Under the pieces are notes generated by a model, which did no database searches, was not told the origin of the DNA, and saw only the letters and a list, made by a program, of their open reading frames with translations. 64,000 nucleotides of DNA from an uncultured Eubacteriales bacterium (GTDB lineage Bacteria; Bacillota; Clostridia; Oscillospirales; CAG-272): NCBI GenBank assembly GCA_949747515.1, contig CATKFO010000067.1:1-64000 (forward strand), read 5' to 3'. Shown one piece after another: positions 2,861 to 36,300 of the stretch. Each line of letters starts with the position of its first letter. Within the stretch, counting starts at the first letter, position 1. The translations under genes and the position numbers were made by a program.

Positions 2861-3562
2861 CTATAGCCACATCGGTTTATATCGGATCGCGTTAACGCAT
2901 TTGTCTGATGAAAACTTTATAGTATATTTTTGTCCATGCTTTAAAACTGGAAATTCCCACAAATCCACTTCTTTGAATTTGTTTTCACCGTCTTGCGTAA
3001 CTGTTCCCGATTCACCGTCGACAATAATAGTTTTTCCCGCGTCAAGATTTTGAATTATTATCGGATCGTCTCCAAAGCCGGATATTCTGTATTCCATCAT
3101 GCTGACAGTGGGGGTGATTTCTAATATGCAGGGTGCGTCCCGTGTTCCAATCGTTTCAAATTGGGCTATTTTTGTGTCGCGGTACATATTTTTTATTTCA
3201 TCATCCATCATGTATCCGCTGAAGGTCAAATTAACAATATATCGTGTTTTGACAATCGTTTTTGTCAGACTGTTATTAGTCAATTTGCCTCTATAATATC
3301 CTTTGTAACCGTCGACGGTAATTAAAACTCCGCGCGTTAGCAAAGACATAAACTCGGAAACGTTACGCACGATCTGATTCCTTCCGTTGCCCCTGAACAG
3401 AATCGACAGTTTCAACGTTCCTTCTTTGACGAACGTTTCAAATTCAATCGGTATAGGCGCGCCGTCGATCCACTCCCTCTCGACGGATATTTTTGGAGGT
3501 TCAAACGAAGCCGTTAATTGCTTTGCATTAAATTTTCTTACGTCGATTCCATCAATTTGCAT
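2861..3562 (-). CDS. Distal tail protein (Dit)
   Basis: A 233-residue siphovirus tail protein placed between tape measure and tail endopeptidase, the standard position of Dit. The N-terminus (MQIDGIDVRKFNAKQL, then WIDGAPIP) and the galectin-like C-terminal half fit the Sipho_tail family. Dit forms the hexameric hub joining the tail tube to the baseplate. GGAGG lies 12 bases before the ATG, inside the end of the tape-measure gene region. Assignment rests on order, length and pattern. Confidence 0.75.
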   Translation of the reverse strand: MQIDGIDVRKFNAKQLTASFEPPKISVEREWIDGAPIPIEFETFVKEGTLKLSILFRGNGRNQIVRNVSEFMSLLTRGVLITVDGYKGYYRGKLTNNSLTKTIVKTRYIVNLTFSGYMMDDEIKNMYRDTKIAQFETIGTRDAPCILEITPTVSMMEYRISGFGDDPIIIQNLDAGKTIIVDGESGTVTQDGENKFKEVDLWEFPVLKHGQKYTIKFSSDKCVNAIRYKPMWL

Positions 3563-3571
3563 ACTCGAATA

Positions 3572-6500
3572 TTACCTCCTCGATTGTATTTCCTTTACAA
3601 TGTTATCAACTACCATTTCCGTTGTATGCTCCGCGACTACCTCGCCGTCAAGCGTAGAAATCGCCGTTACGCTAATAATCTGTTTTTCCTTTAGTTTTTC
3701 ATATTTACTGTCAAGGATAGCGGCCAATCTCTCGTAAAAGGCTTCGTGAAGCGCGACGTAAGTTATTCCCTCTCCGGAAATTGCTTTTTGACTGAACGGA
3801 TGATACGTTTCATCGCTAATCACTGATCCTTCCTTGTACCATTCAAGAGATACGGACGGTAAAGAACGAGCGGCTTTTAAAAACATCGATTCGAGCTTTC
3901 TACATAATATGTCAATCCATCCGGTATTTTTTTCGAGCGGTACAATAGCCTCCGCGCCGTCCTCACCGGCCATAATTAAACGCGGTTTTGACAACACGCC
4001 GCCTTTTGCAAGCAAAGGAATTTCAGGCACTGTTATAGTGCTTATCCAGTCGAAAGGAGTTATCCCGGCGATACTAACGTCCTTAATAGCTTGCAGCGCG
4101 GAATTTATTCCATTGAATGGTACTGATACTACTTTGTTGATACCTTTGATTATTTTATTAACTATACTTGTAAATACGTTTGCTATTCCGTCTTTTATAC
4201 CGTCGAATATTTTTCCACCGGATGAAAAAACATTTTTAACCCCAGTCCACGCCTTCGAAAAAATATCTTTAAACCAAGATGCAACGGATTTGAAAGGAGC
4301 TTTAATGCCTTCCCATACATTACTGAAAAATGAACCTGCCGATGAAAATGCATTTTTAATGCCCGACCATGCGTCGTTGAAAATATCGGTAAACCATGAT
4401 CCGACCGATGAAAATATGTCTTTAATTTTATTCCATATTCCACTGAACAGAGATTGCATCTGTTTGCAGATATATTGTATAAATAGAATGACTGAATCCC
4501 AAATTCCGGAAAAGATTTTTTTGATTCCTTCCCATGCCTGCGACCAATCAAGGGTAAAAATACCGAAGATGAAATCAATTACGCCTTTAAAAACCTCTTT
4601 CAGAGTTTCAAACAGACCGCCGATAAATTCAAAGACGTTTTGGAAAATCGGTTTTAAGAAGTTCCAAAGCCATTCGACGACGGGCTGCAAAACGCCCGTC
4701 CATAAAAACTGAAAAATGGAAATAACCTTGTTGATAATCGGAACGACGGTTTCGTTATAAATTTTCGCCATGCCTTCCCACGCCGCTGCAAATACTCCGC
4801 CTAAAAACTGAGCTAAAGGCACTATGACGTTATTCCATAGCATCGTCATATACTCTGAAACAATACTAATTACCGGAGTAAATACGGAATCAAGGAAAGC
4901 CGCAAATGGAACTATAACGTTATTCCATAAGTTTTCAAACGTACTTGTTAGCGTCGGAACGACCGTGTATGTAATCCATTCAATAGCGGGAATAAGAAAG
5001 TCTGTCCAGCACGACGTAAACGCGCCTATGAGAAAATCGGCAAGCGGAGCGAGCATTTCCTGCAATCGTTTCCAAGCTTCTTGCAAATTAGGAATAACAG
5101 TATTTGATATAAATTCAAGAGCCGGTTGTATCGACGATTTTAAGTCTCCTATAACCGACAGCAGGGAATTGCGAACGTCTTCATTCGTCGCTATCACATA
5201 CCCTAATCCCGCGACAAGAGCGACAATAGCGGCTATTACCAATCCAACTGGAGAACACACGGCCGACAATACGCCGGACAATCCGCCCGTTCCGGCCATT
5301 GCGCCGGACAATTTTCCGATAACAGACGCGACCGTACCGACGCTTGACGCAAGTTTTGAGAAGGCGATAAGTCCGGGGCCGATAGCCGCTATTACAGCCG
5401 CAATTTTTATAATAGTCTGTTGTTCACCATCCGACAGGCCATTGAATTTATCAATAAGTTCGGATATTTTCGTAATTGTTGATTCAACATATGGGAGTAA
5501 TATTTCGCCAAACGATACCGCAAGCGCGCTGATGTTATTTTTCATCATGGCAATGCGGCTTTCAGTTGTCGCATAACGCTGTTCCGATTCATTTGACAGC
5601 GCGATATTTTCACCCCATGCTGCATTTGATACATCAAGCGCGTCTGTTAATATGCCATCGGAGGATGCAAGCGACAATACGGCGTTTGACAGGCGAATTT
5701 CTGTCAATCCCATATCGTTTAGTAATTCAACAGCCGATTTTCCCGTTCTTTCCGTGTCGTTTAGTCCGCCGATGAACATGGAAAGCGCGCCGACTGCATC
5801 TGTTCCCCAATTCTCAATAAACTGATCTGAAGAAAGGCCCGACACATCCGCAAACTGTTCAAGGCTCGATGCGCTTGACATATAGCCGTTCAACTCTGCG
5901 GTTGTCAATCCAAGCGATCCCGCAACCTCCTTGAAGCCTTTGCTATTCAGCGACGACATCAATTCGAGATCGCGAAGGGAGTATCCGGTCGCGTCAATTG
6001 TTTGTTTAGCAGTTCCGTATGTTTGTACGAATACCTCCATTATTTTCAACAACTTTGAAATTGCTGATCCGCCGGCTTCTGCTTCAATGCCGACTGATAA
6101 AAGAGCTGTTGCGATCGCCATAGTTTGAGATTCGGACAATCCAACGATTGCGCCCGTTGACGCCAAGCGCGTCGCCATACTTACAATGTCTGCTTCCGTT
6201 GTGGCGAAATTGTTGCCAAGCGCGACTATGACCGATCCCAAACGATCATAGTTTTCCGCATCCATGTTGACAACGTTCGCGAATTTTGCAAGCGCGGACG
6301 CGGCTTCATCCGCCGTCAAGTTTGTTGCTTCTCCTAAATCAATCATGACGCGCGTAAACGATAGAATGTCATCCGTTTTGATGCCAAGCTGTCCCGCGGC
6401 TTCCGCAACTGACGCGATTTCCGTTGTTGATGAAGGCAGTTCTTTAGACATGTCCATAATGCCTTGCTTCAACATTTCAAATTGTTCTTCCGTACCGTCA

Positions 6501-28125: not shown

Positions 28126-28143
28126 ATGCATGAGGTGATAAAT

Positions 28144-28392
28144 ATGTACAATACAAACGTAACTAACGCTCGAGCGAATCTGTACGACCTTATCAATATG
28201 GCTATAGACGATTCCGAAGTTATAAACATTTCTACTAAGAAAGGTAATGCGGTCATAATAAGCGAAGCGGATTACAACGCTTTAATAGAAACGCTTTATC
28301 TCAGCTCTGATCCGGAATACAAGCAATCGCTTATCGACGGAATGAACACGCCAGTTTCCGAATGTATTCCCGAAGAGGACGTAGAATGGTAA
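28144..28392 (+). CDS. Phd/YefM-family antitoxin
   Basis: An 82-residue antitoxin. The N-terminal DNA-binding fold reads NVTNARANLYDLINMAID, then ISTKKGNAVIISEADYNAL, typical of the PhdYeFM family. The acidic C-terminus (SECIPEEDVEW) neutralises the toxin. The start at 28144 has GAGGTG six bases upstream. The stop overlaps the toxin start. It stabilises the prophage or acts in defence by abortive infection; which of these is unknown. Confidence 0.88.
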   Translation: MYNTNVTNARANLYDLINMAIDDSEVINISTKKGNAVIISEADYNALIETLYLSSDPEYKQSLIDGMNTPVSECIPEEDVEW

Positions 28393-28664
28393 ACTATAAG
28401 ATTGTATATACCAAACAAGCGGTTAAGGATATTGAGTTTTTAAAAAGCTCCGGTTATGATACTAAGGCTAAACGTTTGATTGATATCATTCGTCAAAATC
28501 CTTTTCAGAATCCGCCTCCGTATGAAAAATTGGTCGGCGATTTAAACGGTATGTATTCCAGACGCATAAACATTCAGCATAGGCTTGTATACGAAGTTAT
28601 CAAAGATACTCATACAGTTAAAATTATCAGTCTTTGGAAACACTATGAGTTTAAAAGGACGTAA
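28386..28664 (+). CDS. YoeB/Txe-family mRNA interferase toxin
   Basis: A 92-residue RelE-superfamily toxin of the YoeB/Txe branch that cuts mRNA on the ribosome. Signature segments are IVYTKQAVKDIEFLKSSGY, PPPYEKLVGDLNGMYSRRIN, HRLVYEV and the C-terminal WKHYEF with the catalytic His-Tyr pair. The ATG at 28386 overlaps the antitoxin stop (ATGGTAA). All key residues are present, so it should be active. Confidence 0.9.
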   Translation: MVNYKIVYTKQAVKDIEFLKSSGYDTKAKRLIDIIRQNPFQNPPPYEKLVGDLNGMYSRRINIQHRLVYEVIKDTHTVKIISLWKHYEFKRT

Positions 28665-29020: not shown

Positions 29021-29123
29021 ATGCCTTTGGTGAAGAATAAATTATTATTCTCCGTTGGTATATTGTTAGCACAGCATTATTTTTGAAAAAGTGGTCTGCT
29101 GTGCTTGTCTGTATATATTATAC

Positions 29124-29181
29124 TACGTAAATTTACGTAAGTCAATGGAAAATCACAATAATTTACGTGAATTTGCGTAAA
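29124..29181 (+). promoter_or_regulatory. Two operator palindromes upstream of the XRE gene
   Basis: TACGTAAATTTACGTA (29124-29139) is a perfect 16-base palindrome. TTTACGTGAATTTGCGTAAA (29162-29181) is an imperfect version centred 40 bases away. They lie just before the XRE gene and just after AT-rich -10-like sequence, as expected of sites for its product (autoregulation). Confidence 0.65.
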
Positions 29182-29215: not shown

Positions 29216-29578
29216 ATGGATACTGCACAAACAGCTACTAATATCAAAGATTTATGCAAACAGAAAGGAGTTTCTATATCTGCTCTTCTTTCTGAGTGTA
29301 ATATTAGAAAAAGCTTGATTTATGATATGGAAAAGCGTAATTGCGTCCCATCGGCAGAGATATTAAAAAAGATCGCTAACTATTTTGACGTTTCAGTAGA
29401 TTATCTTCTTGGGAAAACAGAAAAAAAAGAAAAGCCCACCGCTGTTATCAACGATGAGCTTTGGGAGAAAATATGTAATGATCCTAAAAAGCGGGAAATA
29501 GTCGAGCTTATTTTAACTGCTGAACCGGACGATCTTGATAAGATTGAAAAAATAATTCTTGCCGTAACAGAAGAATAA
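29216..29578 (+). CDS. XRE-family transcriptional regulator
   Basis: A 120-residue protein. Residues 8-66 form a Cro/C1 helix-turn-helix (IKDLCKQKGVSISALLSECN, then LIYDMEKRNCVPSAEILKKI, then YFDVSVDYLLGKT). The C-terminal half is helical and could dimerise. AGAAGGGAG precedes the ATG. Two palindromic operators lie just upstream. It is a candidate prophage or accessory-module repressor. Confidence 0.85.
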   Translation: MDTAQTATNIKDLCKQKGVSISALLSECNIRKSLIYDMEKRNCVPSAEILKKIANYFDVSVDYLLGKTEKKEKPTAVINDELWEKICNDPKKREIVELILTAEPDDLDKIEKIILAVTEE

Positions 29579-29657
29579 TTTTGTCAAGCTGTTCGGGGGT
29601 AAGATTTGCTATTCTATTTATTAGTCTACATCGATTATCATTTATATTACCTTCCAT
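29508..29657 (-). CDS. 49-residue SOS-controlled protein
   Basis: ATG at 29657 with a strong GGGAGG site, stop at 29508-29510. The helical core RLINRIANLTPEQLDKIILL looks like a genuine small regulator or adaptor. It is convergent with the XRE gene and overlaps its last 71 bases. Its promoter (29685-29713) contains a perfect LexA-type box, so the gene should be turned on by DNA damage. A role as anti-repressor or induction trigger is inference. Confidence 0.6.
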   Translation of the reverse strand: MEGNINDNRCRLINRIANLTPEQLDKIILLLRQELFFQSYQDRPVQQLK

Positions 29658-29684
29658 TCTTAGCTCCTCCCTTTTAGTATTCCT

Positions 29685-29713
29685 ATTGTATCACAGAACA
29701 ATCGTTCTGTAAA
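29685..29713 (-). promoter_or_regulatory. Promoter with LexA (SOS) box in the spacer
   Basis: Reading leftward: TTTACA (29713-29708), 17 bases, TACAAT (29690-29685). The spacer contains GAACGATTGTTC, matching the Gram-positive LexA consensus GAAC-N4-GTTC, within a longer perfect inverted repeat ACAGAAC/GTTCTGT (29693-29710). LexA bound here would cover both hexamers. Confidence 0.75.
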
Positions 29714-29756
29714 TATGTTTTTGTATTTTTCTTACACCACCTTTTTTTAACAACTT

Positions 29757-29951
29757 TTATATTTCGAGGATAAATAGTTCTTCAACTGTCGAATTTAACG
29801 CTTTCGCAACCCTTAAAGCAATATCTACGCGAGGGATATATCGTTTTCTTTCGATATCGCTTATGGTTGCCTGTGATATACCGGACTTTATGGCAAGTTC
29901 CGCCTGAGACCAATATTTCTTTTTTCGGCATTGTTTAACTAAATTGTCCAT
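29757..29951 (-). CDS. Small XRE-family regulator
   Basis: A 64-residue minimal Cro/C1 protein: LVKQCRKKKYWSQAELAIKS, then GISQATISDIERKRYIP, then ALRVAKALNSTVEELF. It has essentially only the DNA-binding domain. The ATG at 29951 has GAGGG five bases before it. It is divergent from the exonuclease genes and faces the inverted repeat at 30001-30018, so it may control both directions. Confidence 0.8.
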   Translation of the reverse strand: MDNLVKQCRKKKYWSQAELAIKSGISQATISDIERKRYIPRVDIALRVAKALNSTVEELFILEI

Positions 29952-30000
29952 TTTTCCCTCTATATACACACTACGATTTAAAACGATCATTTACGACACA

Positions 30001-30033
30001 TTATCGGTAAGCCGATAAAAATGGGTCTATAAT
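30001..30033 (+). promoter_or_regulatory. Inverted repeat and -10 upstream of the exonuclease genes
   Basis: TTATCGG-TAAG-CCGATAA (30001-30018) is a perfect inverted repeat. Ten bases on lies TATAAT (30028-30033), without a good -35. This looks like a regulator-dependent promoter for the exonuclease pair; the divergent small XRE protein is the obvious candidate regulator. A 165-base leader with nothing recognisable separates it from the ATG. Confidence 0.5.
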
Positions 30034-30198: not shown

Positions 30199-31176
30199 AT
30201 GTCAGTTATAATTAAAGTTGATTTTGATGGGATTCATGTAAGCGAAGAAACGACAAATAGACCTAGGCGAGAGAATAAAGGAAAAAGTCTCATTGCTTTT
30301 CCATCTAATTACACTATTCTTGACTTAGAAACAACAGGACTTGACCCAAAATTTGATAGCATAATTGAAATTGCTGCTTTGCGTGTCCGCAATGGAGAAA
30401 TAGTCGATTCTTTTTCGACGTTGGTAAAACCGGAGGAAGAAGTCAGCGAATTTATAACGGATTTGACCGGGATATCTAACGACATGCTTTCTACAGCCCC
30501 TACTCCAGAAGAAATTTTTCCGTCTGTGCGCGAGTTTCTCAGTAATGACATTATAGTTGGACATAACGTTAATTTTGATATAAACTTCATATATGATTGG
30601 TTTGAAATCATAATTGAAAATATGTTTTCTAATGACTTTGTAGATACCATGCGACTATCAAGAAAGGTTCTTCCAGAACTGCGTCACCACCGATTAAAAG
30701 ATATCGCATCAGCGCTCAATGTATCGCCTAATAATTTTCATAGAGCTTTGAATGATTGTCACACAACCTATAATTGCTTTTGTGCACTCCGCGATCGTGT
30801 TTGCGCTTCCGGAAGTATAAACGAATTTATAAATAGTTTCAAATATAATCATTATACCGACTTAAGAAAAATTACTACCGAAAAAACTGAATTCGATGAG
30901 TCACATCCTCTTTTCAGTAAAAGATGTGTGTTTACCGGAACCCTTGAAAAAATGTCGCGCGCCAATGCCGCGCAATTAGTGGTTAACCACGGCGGTATCT
31001 GTGAAAATGGAGTTACAAAGAAGACGAATTTTCTTATTTTGGGTAATAACGATTATTGTAAGACAATTAAGGATGGTAAAAGCTCAAAACAAAAAAAAGC
31101 AGAAGAGTACAAACTAAACGGAATTGATATAGAAATAATTCCAGAAAATGTATTTTATGATATGTTGGAGTATTAA
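30199..31176 (+). CDS. DnaQ-like 3'-5' exonuclease fused to BRCT
   Basis: A 325-residue protein. A DEDDh exonuclease occupies about 36-205: motif I TILDLETTGLDP (D42, E44), motif II IVGHNVNFDINF (D127), motif III FHRALNDCHTT (H181, D186); all five catalytic residues are present. A BRCT domain occupies about 238-325 (RCVFTGTLEKMSRANAAQLV), which binds DNA ends or phosphoproteins. AGAGG precedes the ATG. It forms a unit with the next gene. Proofreading, repair or anti-phage nuclease roles are all possible. Confidence 0.88.
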   Translation: MSVIIKVDFDGIHVSEETTNRPRRENKGKSLIAFPSNYTILDLETTGLDPKFDSIIEIAALRVRNGEIVDSFSTLVKPEEEVSEFITDLTGISNDMLSTAPTPEEIFPSVREFLSNDIIVGHNVNFDINFIYDWFEIIIENMFSNDFVDTMRLSRKVLPELRHHRLKDIASALNVSPNNFHRALNDCHTTYNCFCALRDRVCASGSINEFINSFKYNHYTDLRKITTEKTEFDESHPLFSKRCVFTGTLEKMSRANAAQLVVNHGGICENGVTKKTNFLILGNNDYCKTIKDGKSSKQKKAEEYKLNGIDIEIIPENVFYDMLEY

Positions 31177-31220
31177 AAGTAACTGGACGAATCAAACAGC
31201 GATAAAAAAGGAGATTCACT

Positions 31221-32198
31221 ATGAGTGTTAATCAGAATCAGGCAAAAGGTAAAAAAATTGAAATATCTTTTCTACTATGCTTATTTTTAGGATACTTTGG
31301 CGCACATAAGTTTTACGAAGGTAAAAACGGTCTTGGCGTTCTGTATTTGTGTACTTTTGGATTGTTCGGAATTGGATGGATTGTTAATACAATAAGTATT
31401 TTATTGAAGATTATCAACAAAGATAATTATGCTAATTCTACAGCTTTAACAGAGAAAGAAATTCCAAGTCATAAAACTAATAATATACATAATGTAACTT
31501 TAGAAGAACATAAACAACAGCTTACGAAATATTTAGATATAAATCGCGAAGAATTCAACAAAGAACTTTCTGAAATTCCAAAGGTTGAATTTTTGATTTC
31601 AAATGAGAATATAAACAGATGCGCTGCGTCTGACATACCTGAAATATATTTTTCTAATATTACCAGAGCAACTAATATTGACAAACTATTTCCTTTTGTT
31701 GTTGTCGACGTTGAAACTACTGGTCTTGAGGTTAATACAAATGATATTATTGAAGTCTCAGCTATAAAATATGACGTTGGATTTCGAGCTGTGTCTTGCT
31801 TTACAAGTCTTTTGAAACCGCAAGCTCCTATACCGCCCAAAGCTACGGCTATAAATCATATCACAGACGATATGGTTGCCGACTGTCCTATGTTTTCTCA
31901 AATTGCTTCTTCTTTTTCAAAATACATAGAAGGCTGCAATGTTATCGGGCATAATCTGAATTTTGATCTTAAATTTTTACAAACTTACGGAGCCGACTTT
32001 TCAAACAGCGTAAAATATTTTGATACGTTGCAGCTCGCGCGAAGAACTCTAACTAAAAACGAAGATGTATGCAACTATAAGCTCGAAACATTATGCGATT
32101 ATTACAATATATACTATACCGCCCATCGTTCTTTGTCCGATTGCTATGCGACAGGGCGTCTATTTAAAGAAGTCATTTATGACAAAATTTCACGGTAA
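31221..32198 (+). CDS. Membrane TM2-domain protein fused to DnaQ-like exonuclease
   Basis: A 325-residue protein. Residues 13-65 form a TM2 domain, two helices joined by the typical GYFGAHKFYEGK turn. A helical linker spans 66-155. A DEDDh exonuclease fills 156-325: VVVDVETTGLE (D163, E165), VIGHNLNFDLKFL (D249), HRSLSDCYATGR (H302, D307). All catalytic residues are kept, so an active nuclease should sit on the cytoplasmic face of the membrane. AAGGAG precedes the ATG. I know of no described function for this fusion. Confidence 0.85.
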   Translation: MSVNQNQAKGKKIEISFLLCLFLGYFGAHKFYEGKNGLGVLYLCTFGLFGIGWIVNTISILLKIINKDNYANSTALTEKEIPSHKTNNIHNVTLEEHKQQLTKYLDINREEFNKELSEIPKVEFLISNENINRCAASDIPEIYFSNITRATNIDKLFPFVVVDVETTGLEVNTNDIIEVSAIKYDVGFRAVSCFTSLLKPQAPIPPKATAINHITDDMVADCPMFSQIASSFSKYIEGCNVIGHNLNFDLKFLQTYGADFSNSVKYFDTLQLARRTLTKNEDVCNYKLETLCDYYNIYYTAHRSLSDCYATGRLFKEVIYDKISR

Positions 32199-32213: not shown

Positions 32214-33797
32214 TTGAACAATAGTAAAAATGCGGTTGTATACGCAAGATACTCAAGCCATCGTCAAGGTGAGCAAAGCATAGAGGGACAGCTTTCGGAA
32301 GCTTATAGATACGCCGCCGATCACGACTTGAAAATCGTACGCGAATATATTGACCGGGCAATGACGGGAAGAAACGATAACCGGGAACAATTTCAAGAAA
32401 TGCTTAAGGATACCGCTCAAAAGCAATTCAGCACTATTATACTGTGGAAAATAGACCGCTTCGGACGTAACCGGGAAGAAATAGCTTTTAATAAATATCG
32501 CTGTAAGAAAAACGGCGTAAAAGTCGTGTACGTTGCTGAAAGCATACCGGACAGCCCCGAGGGAGTAATTTTGGAAAGCGTTCTCGAGGGTATGGCCGAA
32601 TACTATAGTCTCCAGCTTTCTCAAAATGTATTACGAGGTCGAAAAGCAAGCGCGGAAAAGTGTCAATTTGTTGGAGGCTCTTGTCCTCTTGGGTATGTCG
32701 TAGATCCTAAAACTAAAAAATTAACGATAGACCCCAATACCGCGCCTACCGTTAAACTTATATTCGATTTGTATTCCGGCGGTAAAACCGTCGCAGAAAT
32801 CGTAAGCGACCTAAATAGCCGTGGTCTGCGTACCGCTAAGGGAGGGAAGTTTACAAAAAATAGTCTTCATTCAGTACTTAAAAATGAAAAATATATAGGC
32901 GTATACACGTATAAAGATTTGGTGCGAGTTGAAAACGGCGTGCCGGCGATAATTGATTTTGAAAGGTTTGGAAAGGTGCAAGAAATGTTAAAAATAAATA
33001 AAAAAGCTCCATGGCGTACATGGAGCAGGGCCGATTATATCCTTACTGATAAACTATTTTGCGGTTGCTGCGGATCAAAAATGTTTGGAGAGAGCGGTAC
33101 TAGCAAGACAGGCAAAAAACACAATTATTATATCTGTGCAAAACGCAAGCGCGATCATACCTGTAAAAAAAGAGCCGTACGCCAAGAGTTGATCGAGAAC
33201 ATTGTTCTTGAAAACGTGGTCGCAATACTCCAAAACGAAGAAAAGCTGAATTTTATAGTCGACGGCGTGTATGAATACTATAAAAAACAACAGAAGGATA
33301 ACGATCTTTCTTCGGCGTTACAAACCAAACTCAAAGAAGTTGACAAAGCTCAGGCGAATATAATGAAAGCTATTGAAGCGGGATTGTTTAGCCCTGTAAC
33401 AAAAACACGCATGGAGGAGTTGGACGCTCAGCGTGCAGAAATTGAAGATGAAATCGCCGGTATAGAGATCACCAAATCTATGCAGCTCACGCGTGAGAGC
33501 ATCATGTATTTTCTATGTCAAATGCGTGATAAAAGTCTTAAGGATTCAGAATGTCAAAAGCAGCTTATAAATACGTTTGTAAACGCGATATTTGTATACG
33601 ACGATAAAATAAAAATAGGTTTTAACTATTCAGAGGACGATCGAACCGTCGTTTTAACCGATATGGACAGTGCAGAATCGGAAGGGAAAGAGTTCGGATG
33701 CTGTGCGCCACGGTCCACCAAGATGATCGCTGGACGAACCCCTGATGCGAGGATTTTTGTTTTCGCTCAGGGGTTCGTCGAAAGTGTAAAACTGTGA
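32214..33797 (+). CDS. Large serine recombinase (prophage integrase)
   Basis: A 527-residue integrase. The resolvase domain (1-150) starts VVYARYSSHRQGEQSIEGQL with catalytic Ser14, then IILWKIDRFGRNREE. A recombinase domain (160-260) and zinc ribbon (FCGCCGS, later C-x-x-x-x-C pairs) follow, then a coiled coil (about 365-420). The start is TTG at 32214, five bases after GGGAGG. The last 40 residues are encoded within a long inverted repeat. It inserts and, with a helper, excises the prophage. It lies 15 bases after the exonuclease gene. Confidence 0.93.
   Translation: MNNSKNAVVYARYSSHRQGEQSIEGQLSEAYRYAADHDLKIVREYIDRAMTGRNDNREQFQEMLKDTAQKQFSTIILWKIDRFGRNREEIAFNKYRCKKNGVKVVYVAESIPDSPEGVILESVLEGMAEYYSLQLSQNVLRGRKASAEKCQFVGGSCPLGYVVDPKTKKLTIDPNTAPTVKLIFDLYSGGKTVAEIVSDLNSRGLRTAKGGKFTKNSLHSVLKNEKYIGVYTYKDLVRVENGVPAIIDFERFGKVQEMLKINKKAPWRTWSRADYILTDKLFCGCCGSKMFGESGTSKTGKKHNYYICAKRKRDHTCKKRAVRQELIENIVLENVVAILQNEEKLNFIVDGVYEYYKKQQKDNDLSSALQTKLKEVDKAQANIMKAIEAGLFSPVTKTRMEELDAQRAEIEDEIAGIEITKSMQLTRESIMYFLCQMRDKSLKDSECQKQLINTFVNAIFVYDDKIKIGFNYSEDDRTVVLTDMDSAESEGKEFGCCAPRSTKMIAGRTPDARIFVFAQGFVESVKL
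33733..33779 (+). repeat. Inverted repeat in the 3' end of the integrase gene
   Basis: GACGAACCCCTGA (33733-33745) pairs perfectly with TCAGGGGTTCGTC (33767-33779) over a 21-base loop that itself can pair four bases. It ends 18 bases before the integrase stop. It could be a transcription terminator without T-run, or part of an attachment site. The left arm contains CGAACC shared with the second recombinase's end. Confidence 0.75.
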
Positions 33798-34867: not shown

Positions 34868-36300
34868 CTAATGGTTCGACCAGCGCGAGCTCGCCTCCAC
34901 CATTCCAGAGCATAAACAAAATTCACTTTGTTTATGCTCTGTTTCTATTTCCGATAATAACAGGTCTGTCAGGGTTACCGGCTCATCCCCAGAATTGAAA
35001 ATTAAAGTGATCTTATCATCATACAGATAAACGCGGCTAACAAAAATGTTGATTAACGTCTTGCGGTATTTCATATCGTGATGTTGCCTTTTTTAAGAGC
35101 ATTTAAAAAGAATGTTATTCCCTCAACAGTCAAAACAGGTGTTTTTGCTCCCTCAATAGCTATCTGCTTTTTCAGTTCTTCCTGTTCACTCTCTAATTTC
35201 GGAATGACAGCATATAGATTTTTACGTATGCTTTCATCGTCGCAATCTAAAATTGCATCCATTGCATTTCTGTGCCTTCTTTCATTATCTGCAAGCATCT
35301 TTTTCAGATATTTCAGGTTAGCTGTGTCCTTTTCCGTTTCACAGATTGCGACAATTTCAGACGCTATTTTCTGAATATTCTTATCTGTCAACAGCTTTCT
35401 GCATTCATGGATAACTAAATCCTCAATATAATCCTTTCTCACCATCTTTTTATTGCATAATTTCTTCTTTGCCACATTGCATGTGTAATACCGATATACC
35501 TTCTTGCTTTTTGCAGTACCCGAAAATACTGTCATCATTTCTTTGCAGTACCCGCAGAATAGTTTGGTAGTCAGCAAATATTCAACTTTTGCTTTGTGTC
35601 TTGCCGGAGCTTTTCTGTTCTGATTCATTATGTCGGTGACTTTGTAAAACAGTTCATCTGATATGATTCTCGGCATTTGCTCGGGAGTTTCCTGATCACA
35701 ATAAGTGTATATGCCTATATATCTTCTGTTCTGCAATATTGTTCTCAGAGAATTTTTATTGAATTTAGCGCCCCTTGATGTTTTAAGTCCCTCTGCATTA
35801 AGCTGTCTTGTTATTCCCGTAACATTCTTACCGTCTGCATACATTTCAAATATCCGTTTAACAATCGGGGCAGTTTCGGTGTCAATATGAAAACATTGGT
35901 TCTCATCTACCTTGTAACCAAGTGCAACATTCCCACGGCGTTTAAATAATGATCTGCATTGTAATTAATGCCTCGTTTTATTTTTGCTGATAGCTCGTCA
36001 CTGTAGAATTGTGCATATGCCATCATCATATTTCGGAAAAAACGTCCTGACGGGTCTTGACTGAAGTTTTCAGTATAGGATAATAGTAATATTCCGTTTT
36101 CTTCAAATTTTGACGCATTATCTATAGACTGCTTCATGTTTCTCCCAAAACGGTCAATAGAATAAACAAGGACAGCTTCAAAACATTTATTTGAACAATC
36201 TGCAATTAATCTCTTTAATGCCGGACGTTTATCATTTCTGCCAGTCAATGCATAATCTTTATATTCGTTGACCACAGTATAGTTATTTCTTTCAGCATAT
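34868..36300 (-). pseudogene. Broken second serine recombinase
   Basis: Pieces in order (leftward): resolvase part from NEYKDYALTGRNDKRPALKR to about 35930, then recombinase and zinc-ribbon domains (RGAKFNKNSLRTILQNRRYI; FCGYCKEMM) to 35071, then the tail to 34868. There are two frameshifts (near 35930 and near 35075), and the first 50 or so residues, including the catalytic serine, are missing at about 36300. It faces the intact integrase and cannot be active. Confidence 0.85.
34906..34941 (+). repeat. Inverted repeat in the 3' end of the second recombinase
   Basis: CAGAGCATAAACAAA pairs perfectly over 15 bases with TTTGTTTATGCTCTG across a six-base loop. On the plus strand TTTCTATTT follows, so it could terminate the radical SAM transcript. 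It lies in the coding tail of the recombinase remnant, in the same relative place as the inverted repeat of the intact integrase. Confidence 0.8.

Follow-up and report, generated by a model that had tools for sequence, protein, structure and literature searches.

A putative LexA-controlled antirepressor gene facing a protease-less XRE repressor in a Clostridia prophage

In a prophage regulatory region we found a 49-aa ORF that converges on the 3′ end of a short XRE-type repressor gene (XRE1) and is preceded by a promoter carrying a palindrome of the LexA type. The small ORF probably encodes a LexA-repressed antirepressor of XRE1, which would act in the manner of SinI and free the lytic promoter after DNA damage. 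This reading was built from sequence, namely from the box, the promoter, the ORF, a predicted terminator, the exchange of the ORF together with XRE1, the resemblance of its product to the repressor tail, and the recurrence of the arrangement in other phages. Many prophage repressors have no self-cleavage domain; if the reading is true, a prophage of this kind could respond to DNA damage although its repressor does not cleave itself.

Genomic setting

The window, by which we mean the whole 64-kb stretch of DNA analysed, is part of contig C67 of a 2.34-Mb draft genome. It holds a prophage in which the genes for tape measure, capsid, portal, and terminase are on the minus strand and read leftward, with a serine integrase gene (32214–33797) on its right side. 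Three regulatory genes, XRE1 (+), the 49-aa ORF (−), and XRE2 (−), are clustered at 29216–29990 (Table 1).

Several neighboring features were also noted. Two adjacent DEDDh exonuclease genes lie beside the integrase gene (30199–32198, +), one with a BRCT domain and the other fused to an N-terminal TM2 domain, and a second serine recombinase gene, broken into two pieces, lies beyond the integrase (35071–36275, −). A toxin-antitoxin pair of the Phd/YefM-YoeB type (28126–28664, +) separates the leftward lytic promoter from the phage genes that run leftward, and would therefore be read in antisense upon induction. Between this pair and the XRE1 operator region are two tandem skipping-rope RNAs (RF02924; 28667–28752 and 28770–28839, +), which scored 64.3 and 63.4 bits, respectively, at a gathering score of 36.7.

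Table 1. Features of the prophage regulatory region (positions within the window)
Feature	Coordinates	Strand	Description
Leftward lytic-type promoter	29117..29145	-	TTGACT-17-TATAAT; palindrome TACGTAAATTTACGTA (29124-29139) in spacer, putative XRE1 operator
Second putative XRE1 operator	29162..29181	.	TTTACGTGAATTTGCGTAAA, upstream of XRE1
XRE1	29216..29578	+	120-aa repressor without protease domain; Pfam HTH_3
Predicted intrinsic terminator of small-ORF transcript	29431..29462	-	14-bp stem and U-tract, inside XRE1 coding region
Small ORF	29508..29657	-	49 aa, ATG 29657, stop 29508; MEGNINDNRCRLINRIANLTPEQLDKIILLLRQELFFQSYQDRPVQQLK; proposed antirepressor of XRE1
Small-ORF RBS	29665..29672	-	GGGAGGAG, strong
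Small-ORF promoter	29685..29713	-	TTTACA-17-TACAAT, box core within spacer; -35 TTTACA 29713-29708, -10 TACAAT 29690-29685, 17-nt spacer GAACGATTGTTCTGTGA
Putative LexA box, 18-bp palindrome	29693..29710	.	ACAGAAC-N4-GTTCTGT; core 29696-29707
XRE2	29757..29990	-	77-aa HTH protein upstream of small-ORF promoter, conserved with that promoter

A LexA-type box within the small-ORF promoter

The box is a perfect 18-bp palindrome, ACAGAAC-GATT-GTTCTGT, and its core, GAAC-N4-GTTC, occupies bases 1–12 of the 17-nt spacer. The core was the sole exact match to this 12-mer within the window; since 0.95 matches are expected by chance in 64 kb, the bare count was dropped as evidence. When the core was required to lie inside the spacer of a promoter with 10/12 matching positions, none was found in 60 simulated 64-kb sequences; the box-in-promoter arrangement thus exceeds chance. 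A half-site LexA matrix placed the site third within the window, so that the matrix alone would not pick this box out. The exact TTTACA...TACAAT pattern had no match in the genome contigs, and the promoter pattern alone was rejected as a diagnostic after a looser version of it matched mostly unrelated phage genes in viral contigs. The 18-bp palindrome type was present in 12 of the 395 family genomes, and both of its sites in the host genome belong to copies of the small-ORF cassette. The initial annotation had described GAAC-N4-GTTC between the −35 and −10 elements of a good promoter, followed by a 49-codon gene with a strong ribosome-binding site running into the 3′ end of the XRE gene; all of this was borne out, the ORF overlapping the final 71 bp of XRE1.

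The host encodes both a LexA with an S24 protease domain (contig C38) and a RecA (contig C88), and the small ORF has a GAAC-N4-GTTC/T operator overlapping its promoter, as is required of a LexA/SOS-regulated gene of Clostridia. Most lexA genes in the host genus and family had GAAC-N4-GTTTA/G upstream. A scan of approximately 85,000 genomes with the promoter-embedded pattern TTKACAGAAC-N4-GTTYTGTNNTAHAAT gave 36 matches, the downstream genes of which were named from translations read by eye without a family search. Most of the matches in Clostridia were upstream of DinB/UmuC polymerases (L230, L233, L234, L238, L251, and L256), UvrB (L235), or a radical-SAM protein (L224 and L255). A match in Spirochaetia (L254) was upstream of a RecA-like gene, many in Chloroflexi were upstream of a small protein of unknown function, and some matches preceded genes that could not be named. 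The 18-bp palindrome was also located upstream of the phage lexA gene in a viral contig (L098). On the minus strand of that contig, at about 3375–4190 of the reversed locus, the palindrome and phage lexA have downstream of them a 33-aa ORF that faces an XRE repressor gene in convergent orientation.

No box was found upstream of the host recA, and the host SOS regulon is therefore poorly defined here. Among the plus-strand CGAAC-N4-GTTY sites of the host, about half of all such matches, only that of lexA was promoter-like, and most were inside long ORFs. The occurrence of GAAC-N4-GTTT at lexA promoters within the host genus, and of the palindrome before DinB/UmuC, UvrB, and phage lexA genes, supports by comparison the earlier proposal of a LexA-box promoter: the site upstream of the small ORF is of the LexA/SOS type, with putative LexA binding and damage induction.

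XRE1 and the absence of a self-cleavage domain

XRE1 was related to short CI repressors from phages of streptococci and Listeria. Its best sequence relative in the PDB was SinR (2e-6). Foldseek likewise gave SinR of the SinR/SinI complex as the best match, followed by an entry for the repressor of an arbitrium phage, in the title of which a small antirepressor is named; the E-values of these top matches were approximately 0.002, i.e. above 0.001. The C-terminus of XRE1 was predicted to form a helical hairpin (H90–101/H104–118) with low confidence (pLDDT of approximately 60). An S24 peptidase domain had no match anywhere in the contig of the window, and Peptidase_M78 (ImmA) had none in the whole genome, in agreement with the initial annotation, which had seen no self-cleavage domain in any of the repressors. 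XRE1 was accordingly classified neither as a self-cleaving (S24) nor as an ImmA-controlled prophage repressor, and a damage route other than self-cleavage is needed.

Exchange of XRE1 and the small ORF under a constant promoter

The cassette occurs twice in the host genome, the second copy being on contig C34. Between the window and C34, identity was 94% over the promoter, box, and RBS, 95% over the gap to XRE2, 93% over XRE2, and 91% over the region upstream of XRE2, whereas it was 45% over XRE1, 42% over the overlap, and 44% over the remainder of the small ORF. The two levels of identity met at the opening codons of the small ORF. The XRE2 proteins showed 91% amino-acid identity, with nucleotide differences of 6/1/9 by codon position. 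The leftward promoter is strong in both copies; that of C34, TTGACA-17-TATAAT, carries CTTACAAAATGTAAG in its 17-bp spacer where the window has TACGTAAATTTACGTA, and two CTTACA..TGTAAG sites were present in the C34 copy. Judged from the two copies, XRE1, its putative operators, and the small ORF change together as a single exchangeable unit, whereas the promoter that drives the small ORF stays constant. We propose that the promoter, box, and XRE2 form one module and XRE1 and the small ORF another, so that the effector is swapped with its repressor and the SOS input is retained. Such co-exchange would be expected of a repressor and its cognate antirepressor.

Contig C34 also contained a second short XRE repressor gene (locus L313, 2157–2567, +) facing a convergent 52-aa ORF (2561–2719, −) with its own RBS, the 3′ ends of the two overlapping. 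There was no GAAC-N4-GTT box upstream of this ORF and its product did not resemble the repressor tail; the pair perhaps represents the same design with another input.

The conservation of XRE2 with the promoter raised the question of whether XRE2, and not LexA, binds the palindrome, in which case XRE2 and the small ORF would be a module of transcription factor and small protein with an input other than DNA damage. XRE2 is directly upstream on the same strand, is kept with the promoter in both copies, and equals the box in its degree of conservation; no terminator was detected in the stretch that separates it from the small ORF, so read-through from XRE2 would be possible. Modules of a transcription factor and a small ORF (TF-smORF modules) are, moreover, a known design, SOS-independent in phages of Vibrio and Aeromonas (PMC10432266). 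However, the palindrome nearest the start of XRE2 itself, TTATCGG-N4-CCGATAA (30001–30018), has a different sequence, and the palindrome of the small-ORF promoter precedes lexA and DNA-repair genes elsewhere. The palindrome or its core also stands before convergent small ORFs in five viral loci (L133, L020, L071, L124, and L330), upstream of which a non-systematic look noticed no XRE2-like gene. We consider XRE2 an unlikely binder of the palindrome. As a widespread marker XRE2 was dropped, as the 395 family genomes contained only two copies of it, both in the host genome.

Predicted transcript of the small ORF

The predicted terminator within XRE1 had an RNA fold of −19.1 kcal/mol (z −5.6), and a counterpart was present in the C34 copy (L003, 1271–1241) despite the divergence of XRE1. 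The transcript was predicted to end 46–77 nt past the small ORF; at approximately 250 nt, it would not reach the lytic operon. The initial annotation had also suggested antisense transcription against the XRE mRNA. This suggestion was weakened by the position of the predicted terminator inside XRE1 and by its counterpart in C34: the antisense overlap would be only approximately 150 nt, which would make antisense silencing secondary at most.

A further alternative is that the unit works at the RNA level and the ORF has no role of its own, the effect coming from SOS-induced antisense RNA that covers the 3′ end of the XRE1 mRNA, from transcriptional interference, or from read-through into the lytic operon. 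The transcript is indeed on the same strand as that operon and overlaps XRE1 by 71 bp in the ORF, or approximately 150 bp up to the terminator. Against this, a strong RBS and an ORF are found in both copies, the predicted terminator with its C34 counterpart would limit the transcript, and no Rfam family was found over the small-ORF unit. In addition, 12 of 23 changes between the related small ORFs of L020 and L071 were at third codon positions, and the box-controlled small ORF of L071 ends beyond the 3′ end of its XRE gene, showing that the overlap is not the conserved feature. We regard action as RNA as unlikely.

Recurrence in other phages

In seven of 120 viral contigs containing the palindrome, an XRE gene ends 40–340 bp short of it; among the seven are one co-directional case (L026) and two contigs that are nearly identical (L055/L104). 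The random expectation was 0.97, and none of 5000 trials reached seven. Box-controlled small ORFs converging on an XRE repressor were found in L133 (47 aa), in L020 and L071 (36 aa each, related), and in L124 (51 aa). Two further cases were found by repressor homology, without use of the box: L318 has a 36-aa ORF with the box 45 nt upstream, and L330 a 51-aa ORF with the box at a distance of 49 nt upstream. In the small set collected by repressor homology, the long-repressor relatives (L327, L331, and others) lacked an ORF of this kind, a difference that is suggestive only. Box-controlled small ORFs facing short XRE repressors, the control being read from the position of the putative box, thus recur in unrelated phages.

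The small protein and its likeness to the repressor tail

The small protein was predicted by AlphaFold2 to be a helical hairpin (H5–17/H21–41), with a mean pLDDT of 84 and values of approximately 95 over residues 11–40. Its local alignment with the C-terminus of XRE1 scored 40 against a shuffle mean of 21 (P about 0.003). When cognate scores were ranked among approximately 74 XRE C-termini, the cognate tail was third for the window, fourth for C34 and for L133, first for L098, and fifth for L124. The strongest resemblance was that between the 33-aa ORF of L098 and the XRE tail that it faces (score 55, shuffle mean 26.5, 0 of 2000 shuffles as good). By alignment, no resemblance was found in L020, L071, and the second C34 pair. 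The predicted product of the small ORF in the window is thus small and helical, and it is similar to the hairpin at the C-terminus of XRE1, as far as the low-confidence model of the XRE1 tail allows. Since a hairpin of 33–53 aa is simple and amphipathic, some of these likenesses could be convergent.

The small protein belonged to no family in Pfam, PHROGs, or NCBIfam. No relatives were found in IMG/VR by tblastn, a search of the PDB returned nothing, and its own model matched no PDB fold. With no match to the SinI family in Pfam, NCBIfam, or the PDB, it was not filed as a SinI member. This lack of a family match, together with the several small ORFs that did not align with their own repressor tail, would also fit a small protein with a different role in the SOS response, for example that of a toxin, a co-repressor, or an effector of host functions, placed beside XRE1 by the accidents of phage mosaicism. 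The co-exchange with XRE1, and the finding that such ORFs face short XRE repressors again and again in unrelated phages, argue against such a role, which we regard as rather improbable. The same recurrence, and the resemblance of the product to the C-terminal hairpin of the repressor, favored the small anti-repressor of the initial annotation; its further suggestion of RHH regulators as targets was unsupported, XRE1 being the regulator with which the ORF was exchanged.

Proposed mechanism

For the reading in which the small protein is an antirepressor of XRE1, the following steps are suggested. In the lysogen, the small-ORF promoter would be kept off by host LexA bound to the palindrome in its spacer. 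XRE1, a short CI-type protein without a protease domain, would serve as the master repressor and keep the leftward lytic promoter off. Upon DNA damage, RecA would trigger the self-cleavage of LexA, and the small ORF would be transcribed as a discrete unit of approximately 250 nt. Its presumed translation product, the 49-aa hairpin, would pair with the tail of XRE1. This pairing would take the dimer or oligomer of XRE1 apart, in the way that SinI acts on SinR, and the lytic promoter would be released.

More tentatively, the cassette may exemplify an undescribed and widespread immunity module of Clostridia phages and their relatives. Such a module would consist of a short protease-less XRE repressor and a convergent, LexA-controlled tail decoy of 33–53 aa, exchanged as a unit under a constant SOS promoter, and prophages in one cell would share the damage signal with private pairs of repressor and decoy. 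If true, this would explain how several prophages per cell can share the SOS signal and yet keep private repressor/antirepressor pairs. The signature of a LexA box, a tiny ORF, and a converging XRE gene would then predict damage-inducible prophages in gut Clostridia, and would also name the effector, which is usually missed by gene callers. No description of this arrangement in Clostridia was found in the open-access literature, subscription papers being mostly outside the search.

Comparison with known systems

SinI is a host developmental regulator for which LexA control is not known. In the SinI/SinR system of Bacillus subtilis (1b0n), as proposed here, a small helical protein opposes an XRE repressor whose C-terminal hairpin it resembles; unlike SinI, the small protein of the window matches no SinI family and no PDB fold. 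In the LexA step, the proposed arrangement is like that of the Gifsy antirepressors (PMC3121763) and Tum of coliphage 186, where prophage induction is brought about by a LexA-repressed antirepressor and the repressor itself stays uncleaved. Family searches revealed no sequence relation to the Gifsy and Tum antirepressors, and the agreement is one of architecture. The Gifsy antirepressor unit lies far from the immunity region and is not part of it (PMC3121763), whereas the small ORF is inside that region, convergent on the repressor gene, and in Clostridia. The TF-smORF lysis modules known from phages of Vibrio and Aeromonas, and likewise Qtip, rely on a small protein that disables the phage repressor with no proteolysis involved, and the modules are cognate-specific (PMC10432266). 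These modules are SOS-independent and switched on by a neighboring transcription factor, whereas the input here looks like LexA. Finally, AimX and the phi106 repressor of the arbitrium system (PDB 9iaq and 9sf2, compared by their titles) likewise pair a small antirepressor with an XRE-type phage repressor, and an arbitrium-phage repressor was among the closest folds to XRE1; the input of AimX is AimR/AimP peptide signaling, unlike the LexA-type input indicated here.
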